DNA of 64,000 nucleotides from Candidatus Krumholzibacteriota bacterium. Its GTDB lineage: Bacteria; Krumholzibacteriota; Krumholzibacteriia; Krumholzibacteriales; Krumholzibacteriaceae. Position 1 is the first letter of the stretch. The number at the start of each line of letters is the position of its first letter. The DNA is taken from positions 1 through 64,000 of the forward strand of contig JAUWCL010000016.1 in NCBI GenBank assembly GCA_030609325.1. Reading direction: 5' to 3'. The position numbers and the translations under genes were made by a program. Positions 1 through 1,413 of this stretch are shown here, one piece after another. The notes under the pieces are model-generated. The model was given only the letters and a program-made list of their open reading frames with translations, did no database searches and was not told where the DNA came from.

Positions 1-312
1 ATCACCAGCCTCGGAAACGTCGGCCCCGCGCTGAACCAGTCCGGAACGGCTGCAGGCGTAATTGGCGGAGAATGCTCAGATGTCTACGGCATCGTCGATG
101 CCGGTACGGCCCTTGTCTGCACCTGGGACACCCTGACGATCATCGTCTGGGATCAGGCCGGCACCGTCTACGATACGTGCGTACAGGCGATCCATGTGGT
201 CGAGCCTATACCCGTACCTCTCTTCACCGCTCCGGTCGTGACGATCCTGGTCCTTGCCATGATCCTCGCCGCCGCGGTCATCATGAAGAGGCACGCCGTA
301 AGCAAGGCCTGA
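1..312 (+). CDS. C-terminal end of a surface protein with exosortase-type sorting tail (5' truncated by window edge)
   Basis: The frame is open from base 1 and ends in TGA at 310-312, so only the last 103 residues are visible. The visible part looks like an extracellular beta-rich domain (SGTAAGVIGG, CTWDTLTIIVWD). It then has a tail of the sorting-signal kind: a short Pro-rich motif IPVPLFTAP, one hydrophobic helix (TILVLAMILAAAVIM) and a basic end (KRHAVSKA). This tripartite tail immediately precedes an exosortase gene, so this is probably its dedicated substrate. The motif resembles the IPTLxxWG class only loosely (IPxPLF). Function of the main body is unknown. Confidence 0.7.
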   Translation: MTSLGNVGPALNQSGTAAGVIGGECSDVYGIVDAGTALVCTWDTLTIIVWDQAGTVYDTCVQAIHVVEPIPVPLFTAPVVTILVLAMILAAAVIMKRHAVSKA

Positions 313-357
313 GAACCGAATTGCCGATGATATCGTGAGGTATTGAAAGAGTAACGG

Positions 358-918
358 TTGGGCCACGGAAAGAAGCCAGAAGGTCAAATAGGAGAGTCGC
401 GAGGGAGTTCACGATCCTTCCGCAGGGATTTTACCGTATTCCTGATTCTCTTCTTTGCCCTCTGGCTTTTTTCCTATTTATTGACCAGGAGATACCCCGG
501 AACAGTCACTGGAATGCAGCTTCTCGTGGCCGGGGAGCTCGACTGGTGCCTCGACAGGCTCGGATATCTGTTCACCAGGGTCGACTCCACGTTCACATTT
601 CACACAGACCATGGCGGCGAGCGGCTCATAGTAATCGCGGAGTGCACGGGGCTCTACACGACGATCATCTTCTATTCGATCATCGGGGCATACCCCGCGC
701 GGATAAGGGAGAAGATCACCGGGCTGCTGATCGGCATACCTTCCATCCACTTCCTCAACCTCGTGCGGATGGTGGTCGTCTCGCTCGTGCTTTATCACAG
801 GAGAGAACTGTTCGATTTCTTCCACGGGTATCTCTGGCAGGTGAGCTTCGTCATCTTCATGCTCCTGCTCGTGATATTCTGGATGGCGAAGATAGTCAAG
901 CCTCGCGAGGCGGGATAG
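358..918 (+). CDS. xrtH: Exosortase/archaeosortase family transpeptidase, XrtH-like
   Basis: A 186-residue multi-membrane-span protein with the three exosortase catalytic residues: Cys96 in ECTGLY, Arg137 in NLVRMV and His156 in FFHGYLWQ. Exosortases cut C-terminal sorting signals at the membrane and pass the protein on for surface attachment. The start used is TTG at 358 behind a GAAAGAG ribosome site, 45 bases after the presumed substrate gene; no ATG lies upstream of the first helix. The small size, together with the following membrane protein, suggests the exosortase H branch. The family is certain; the H subclass is inference. Confidence 0.85.
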   Translation: MGHGKKPEGQIGESRGSSRSFRRDFTVFLILFFALWLFSYLLTRRYPGTVTGMQLLVAGELDWCLDRLGYLFTRVDSTFTFHTDHGGERLIVIAECTGLYTTIIFYSIIGAYPARIREKITGLLIGIPSIHFLNLVRMVVVSLVLYHRRELFDFFHGYLWQVSFVIFMLLLVIFWMAKIVKPREAG

Positions 919-924
919 GCAGAT

Positions 925-1413
925 ATGATTGAAGCGAAAGAAAGAAAACCCGACATGAAGAGGATGCTGGTCTTCTTTGTCCGGTTTGTCGTAGTTTCGC
1001 TCGTCCTCTATGCCGCGTGGATGTTCATCGGGAAGTTCTATACGCTGATAGTGGCGTGGGGGGCGAAACCTCTTGTAGCCCTGACGGGGAACACGCTCAA
1101 CGTGGATCGGGTCCTGAATGTCTCAGAGGATATCTCTCTCAACCCGGTCGTCTACATCTCGCTTGTGATCGCTGTAACGGGAGTCGCCTGGAAGGAGAAG
1201 TTCAGGCCCGCGCTGATCGGAGTGCTCATCCTGACGGCGGCCAACATTATCACCGTCTTTTTCATGTTCCTCAGCGCGTTCACCCGCAGCGAGCAGTTGT
1301 GGACCGGGACGGAGTTCCTCAACCTTACGATCAACTTCTTCCTGCCCATCCTGCTCTGGGTCATGCTGATGCCGAAGGGCGACCTCCTGCCCGTCAGCTC
1401 TTTGCGCGACTGA
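925..1413 (+). CDS. Exosortase-associated integral membrane protein
   Basis: A 162-residue protein with about four hydrophobic segments (residues ~12-40, 70-90, 95-120 and 133-150), starting 6 bases after the exosortase stop. I recall a membrane protein family that regularly neighbours exosortase H, and this matches in size, topology and position, so a partner role in the sorting step is likely. No catalytic motif is visible. A second in-frame ATG lies at 955. The 3' end overlaps the convergent cysS gene by 20 bases. Confidence 0.65.
   Translation: MIEAKERKPDMKRMLVFFVRFVVVSLVLYAAWMFIGKFYTLIVAWGAKPLVALTGNTLNVDRVLNVSEDISLNPVVYISLVIAVTGVAWKEKFRPALIGVLILTAANIITVFFMFLSAFTRSEQLWTGTEFLNLTINFFLPILLWVMLMPKGDLLPVSSLRD

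Follow-up and report, generated by a model that had tools for sequence, protein, structure and literature searches.

The window, a 64,000-nucleotide stretch of a Krumholzibacteriota contig, begins with a compact cassette of three genes, which we consider likely to constitute a lineage-specific exosortase system: the product of the first gene (substrate A) would be cut and transferred by a small exosortase, a catalytically dead partner would sit in a complex with the enzyme, and other proteins bearing the same type of C-terminal tail (the VPLF tail) would also be processed. The exosortase superfamily comprises enzymes that use a Cys to cleave a C-terminal signal. The original prediction of a compact exosortase locus with an adjacent substrate and a partner membrane protein is borne out, all three pieces lying where it had placed them (Table 1).

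Table 1. Features of the exosortase cassette at the start of the window
Feature	Position	Strand	Description or evidence
Substrate A, 3' end	1..312	+	about 103 of roughly 306 aa; part of the putative Ig-like domain and the C-terminal sorting-type tail
Exact match to the terminal stretch of contig C53 (second substrate gene); assembly break	1..141	.	
42-residue tail QAIHVVEPIPVPLFTAPVVTILVLAMILAAAVIMKRHAVSKA	184..309	+	alignment of 11 tails and profile search
Small exosortase, 186 aa, TTG start	358..918	+	Cys96, Asn134, Arg137, and His156 invariant in 21 orthologues
24-bp element GGGCCACGGAAAGAAGCCAGAAGG	360..383	+	overlaps the start of the exosortase gene; conservation at the DNA level
Partner membrane protein, 162 aa	925..1413	+	probable divergent exosortase homologue without catalytic residues

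The tail with which the reading frame at 1-312 ends (VPLFTAPVVTILVLAMILAAAVIMKRHAVSKA) has the sorting-signal layout that had been read into it, namely a motif (VP-L/I-F-T/S-x-P), a helix, and a basic end. In an alignment of 11 such tails, the mean column identity is 84%, and the conserved core takes the form VPLF[TS]xPVV-helix-[RK]R, with VPLF, the following P, and then VVT and AAAV held. The 42-residue profile recovers the window tail at 184-309 with E = 1.7e-26, this being a training sequence of that profile, and across 80 genomes of the phylum, matches at E < 1e-4 are confined to the two families that hold the exosortase. These observations bear on the reading that VPLF tails are plain, unprocessed C-terminal anchors, whose adjacency to an exosortase is merely inherited gene order. 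We regard this as improbable: a tail built of a motif, a helix, and a basic end can serve as a simple stop-transfer anchor, but specific residues (VPLF, P, VVT, and AAAV) are kept beyond what an anchor needs; the tail of substrate A is more conserved between genomes (84% identity) than the domain preceding it (61%); the same tail is carried in one genome (G014) by an 881-aa protein whose body is unrelated; and in the 55 genomes outside the two families no tail was found at E < 1e-4, the best match there having E = 0.032.

Base 1 of the window is base 1 of contig C52 of its genome (G000), leaving no sequence for the leftward extension that had been suggested, and the first 141 bp of that contig recur without a mismatch at the end of contig C53. 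Hence, we place the assembly break inside a repeated gene, as a result of which the 5' part of substrate A is lost and the gene looks truncated. In relatives, substrate A can be read at full length in eight examples (306 to 329 aa), all beginning with MKK and a hydrophobic stretch resembling a signal peptide. A structural model of the G020 version (mean pLDDT, 76.8) is strand rich with a terminal helix; its fold matches in the PDB have low TM-scores and are largely to Ig-like proteins (RbmA, for example), and it is from these matches that we read the domain as Ig-like. Some stretches of the substrate genes in G014 are N, rendering parts of their proteins unreadable (L095:5014-7656, reverse strand; L096; L036).

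The proposal that the signal is a variant holds in that it differs from IPTLxxWG; the leading “IP” is, however, not conserved, and the core starts with VPLF. The window tail matches none of the sorting-signal models even at E <= 10, and no VPLF tail tested reaches a listed sorting-signal cut-off. Weak matches to IPTL-CTERM or midcut-by-XrtH were seen for a few tails; against TIGR04174 (IPTL-CTERM), 2 of 22 tails match at E <= 10, the better of them with E = 0.053, and one of the two scores 13.9 bits, the cut-off of this model being set at 20.5. In the genome of the window, the VPLF tails are likewise without a match to PEP-CTERM (TIGR02595, cut-off 16 bits), for which the only match there is a protein on contig C9.

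Searched against the exosortase HMMs, as had been suggested, the gene at 358-918 passes the superfamily model (57.5 bits against TIGR04178, cut-off 23), as do all 21 small exosortases, and stays below every subclass cut-off: ArtB, 72.6 bits (cut-off 150); XrtH, 68.4 (86); and XrtX, 61.1 (170). Indeed, no curated subclass cut-off is reached by any of the 21. The three catalytic residues ascribed to the enzyme (Cys96, Arg137, and His156) are upheld by their invariance and, together with Asn134, match the motifs CxG, NxxR, and His, the proposed catalytic triad of exosortases (PMC1569441). In archaeosortase A, Cys173, Arg214, and Arg253 have been found critical by mutagenesis (PMC9263693). One member of the 21 has an Ala in the CxG motif, and the His is followed by xxxW in place of xxxG. 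Searches of PDB sequences with the enzyme profile and with that of the partner gave no match at E <= 1. Every member has ArtB as one of its two top-scoring models; the highest score is 85.6 bits, against the 150-bit cut-off of archaeosortase B (TIGR04144). The tail of that system (VPXXXP-CTERM) resembles the present one in starting with Val-Pro and having a later Pro, but here four residues separate VP from P, and the host is bacterial.

The nearest subclass is XrtH (TIGR04177), and it is conceivable, though we think it unlikely, that the locus is a divergent XrtH system, its novelty arising from conservative model cut-offs and from drift of the IPTL-CTERM signal. Like XrtH, it combines a small exosortase, an adjacent small membrane protein (that of XrtH being described by NF041730), and a short motif-helix-basic tail. 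For every member, XrtH also ranks first or second among the models, the best orthologue (G018) reaching 85.1 of 86 bits, and the few weak tail matches and a single internal tail-like segment in a G016 protein, which recalls midcut-by-XrtH, point the same way. Against this, all 21 enzymes lie below the XrtH cut-off and several score higher with ArtB; the tail lacks Trp-Gly, reaches no IPTL cut-off in any tail tested, and in the window is without a match even at E <= 10; and the window partner scores 8.4 of 35 bits on NF041730, a model that 4 of 20 partners match weakly. Because the tests of the enzyme (narrowly), the signal, and the partner each fall short of XrtH, the locus is, on these scores, best filed as a lineage-specific variant of the XrtH-like kind of exosortase and not as XrtH itself. 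It would add an exosortase subclass and a sorting signal outside the coverage of the NCBIfam models, and in the literature searched we found no report on Krumholzibacteriota exosortases, on IPTL or XrtH, or on a pseudoenzyme among exosortases.

Of the 20 genomes in the same family, 19 have an orthologue of the exosortase (at least 53% identity), as do two in a sister family; none was found elsewhere in the class. Immediately upstream of the exosortase, all 19 same-family loci have a VPLF-tailed gene, and the order substrate-exosortase-partner is kept in each of these enzyme-holding genomes (19/19). The sister family has the enzyme and the partner only, the pair in G033 being without an adjacent VPLF substrate. 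A cysS-like gene follows the cassette in 20 of the 21 loci, and tRNA genes precede it in several. Counted by hand over the 80 genomes, VPLF tails and the small exosortase occur together in 21, tails only in 3, the enzyme only in none, and neither in 56, counts that are not independent, as the genomes are related, and that are confounded by relatedness, as all carriers belong to two families.

The genome of the window has a second exosortase system. Contig C9 encodes an EpsH-type exosortase (172 bits with TIGR02602, cut-off 105.55) and, just upstream of it, a canonical PEP-CTERM protein, the two lying at L147:859-1581 and L123:916-1824. An initial impression from BLAST that the small exosortase was the only one in this genome was rejected when the family search recovered the C9 gene. 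The EpsH/XrtA type shares with the small enzyme the Cys (CxG), Asn-x-x-Arg, and His motifs (PMC1569441) and coexists with it here, but EpsH has about 300 aa, an 8TM model, and a PEP signal. We consider it very improbable that the VPLF tails are processed by this EpsH-type enzyme in place of the small one. Three fragmented assemblies (G022, G032, and G034) do have tails and the EpsH type, with the small exosortase not found in them, but the EpsH-type gene has its own PEP-CTERM neighbor, which in the genome of the window is all that the PEP-CTERM model matches. Moreover, the tails agree better with the small exosortase than with the EpsH type, for which the corresponding counts over the same related genomes are 19 with both, 5 with tails only, 8 with the enzyme only, and 48 with neither. 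The five genomes with tails but no EpsH-type match all have the small enzyme; among them is G033, which is assembled in 2 contigs and encodes the enzyme, the partner, and a tailed papain-family protease.

The pairing of one enzyme with one substrate in the original prediction does not survive: besides the second exosortase with its PEP-CTERM neighbor, a scan for further tails of this kind recovered another carrier in the same genome, a papain-like protease, and relatives in the two families usually have 2 to 4 VPLF tails per genome (with two tail profiles). This protease is split: contig C45 holds its 5' part and contig C53 most likely its 3' part, judging from the similarity of the tail there to that of the G022 protease. 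Typically, the second carrier belongs to the papain family of proteases, and three such carriers tested possess the PF00112 domain along with the lectin-like domain PF18560. In the same-family proteases, these are followed by the same module as in substrate A and then by the tail. Substrate A corresponds to the C-terminal 280 to 300 residues of the protease, with 46 to 84% identity within a genome (five pairs). The domains of the two carriers are 76% alike within a genome, versus 61% for substrate A domains between genomes; conversely, the tails of the two carriers (A and B) are 61% alike within a genome, versus 84% for A tails between genomes. These opposite patterns suggest that the two substrate genes have exchanged the domain, with the A tail being held constant, and the similarity of the domains within a genome is suggestive of gene conversion between these genes. 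In G016, a 1408-aa frame (L108:583-4806) comprises an A-like protein with the internal tail-like segment followed by a second protein. The second part of this frame ends in a PNPFNP-type C-terminal domain. A parallel of sorts is offered by the rhombosortase/GlyGly-CTERM system, in which genomes with a single target tend to have the target and protease genes adjacent (PMC3237569), but that protease belongs to an unrelated family, and here there is more than one tail per genome.

The partner gene directly follows that of the enzyme in 21 of 21 loci and never occurs without it. In G015, the two are fused in one 345-aa frame, and G014 has a second, diverged exosortase-partner copy that is also fused (363 aa; L051:9199-10287), near which no VPLF tail was found. 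We propose, as a new suggestion, that the partner is itself probably an exosortase that has diverged and lacks the catalytic residues, serving as a dead subunit. With enlarged alignments, hhalign relates the partner to the exosortase with a probability of 85% and E = 6e-6 (one comparison); the score of 43.0 may be set against a maximum of 33.4 in 300 column shuffles, some of which preserve the local hydrophobic profile, a score of 13.0 with the profile reversed, and a positive control (EpsH type versus small exosortase) at 51.8. In a scan of all 20 partners, the five models that drew matches from the most members were all those of exo- or archaeosortases. In a search of 2491 ORFs with the partner profile, many exosortases rank next after the partner's own family, with weak E-values, and in the reverse search the first match of the exosortase profile beyond exosortases is a partner (E = 0.013). 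The window partner has no Cys or His, neither of which is conserved in the 20 partners, and Arg137 of the enzyme aligns near Thr110 of the partner.

The partner could instead be an unrelated small membrane protein (a scaffold, an assembly factor, or one concerned with handling the acceptor) that resembles exosortases through shared hydrophobic composition. Such a reading would account for several results: no single family model is matched by the partner above its cut-off; the hhalign probability stood at 10% with the initial shallow alignments, increasing once further divergent sequences had been included; a genome search with the partner profile recovered no exosortase at E <= 1 except the fused copy; and the PDB yielded no fold match at E <= 0.001 for the partner model (mean pLDDT, 84). 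Nevertheless, we consider it the less probable of the two, as the margin over shuffled and reversed profiles, the nature of the five most-matched models, and the reverse test among the ORFs all favor kinship with exosortases.

If the partner is a dead exosortase, this would be a first indication, in mechanistic terms, of the nature of exosortase partner proteins. More tentatively, and with somewhat less than even confidence, we suggest that the small exosortases of this clade work as obligate pairs of an active and a catalytically dead protein, sometimes fused, a scheme to which other exosortase-associated membrane proteins (that of XrtH and perhaps that of XrtF) may conform. XrtF of Flavobacterium is likewise a variant exosortase with an adjacent partner, and deletion of either its gene or that of the associated protein causes the same loss of biofilm and zorbs, a precedent for a required partner (PMC10936215); unlike here, where VPLF tails are candidates, the substrates of XrtF are not known, and the window enzyme scores 28.5 of 90 bits with the XrtF model.

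Taking a divergent, dead exosortase as the partner, we propose that a signal peptide directs the export of substrate A and that the C-terminal helix retains the protein in the inner membrane, where the small exosortase would cut at or near VPLF[TS]xP through Cys96/Arg137/His156. The new C-terminus would then be passed to an acceptor, a transfer also proposed for ArtA substrates (PMC7157517). The partner would be in a complex with the enzyme, probably positioning the substrate or the acceptor, and the remaining VPLF-tailed proteins of the genome, among them typically the papain-family protease, most likely serve as substrates of the same enzyme. The sequence-based components of this scheme are the genes, tails, conserved residues, linkage, co-occurrence, and fusions, from which we infer cleavage, anchoring, complex formation, the role of the partner, the status of VPLF tails as substrates, and, as the product, a small set of surface proteins including the protease. 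The tagged protease suggests that one output is a surface-displayed protease, and the small number of candidate substrates (2 to 4 per genome) makes the match between enzyme and signal directly testable.

Finally, the start of the exosortase gene coincides with a 24-bp element (GGGCCAnGGAAAGAAGCCnGAAGG, window 360-383), which is present in 19 of 20 same-family genomes, once per genome, with G016 having a second match with 3 mismatches. An Rfam search around it gave only tRNAs and subthreshold chance matches. Codon identity at the element is 0.81, versus 0.50 in the rest of the gene, where other windows reach 0.77. The element is out of frame in G012, and the exosortase genes of G016 to G018 have no ATG, GTG, or TTG start before the first helix.
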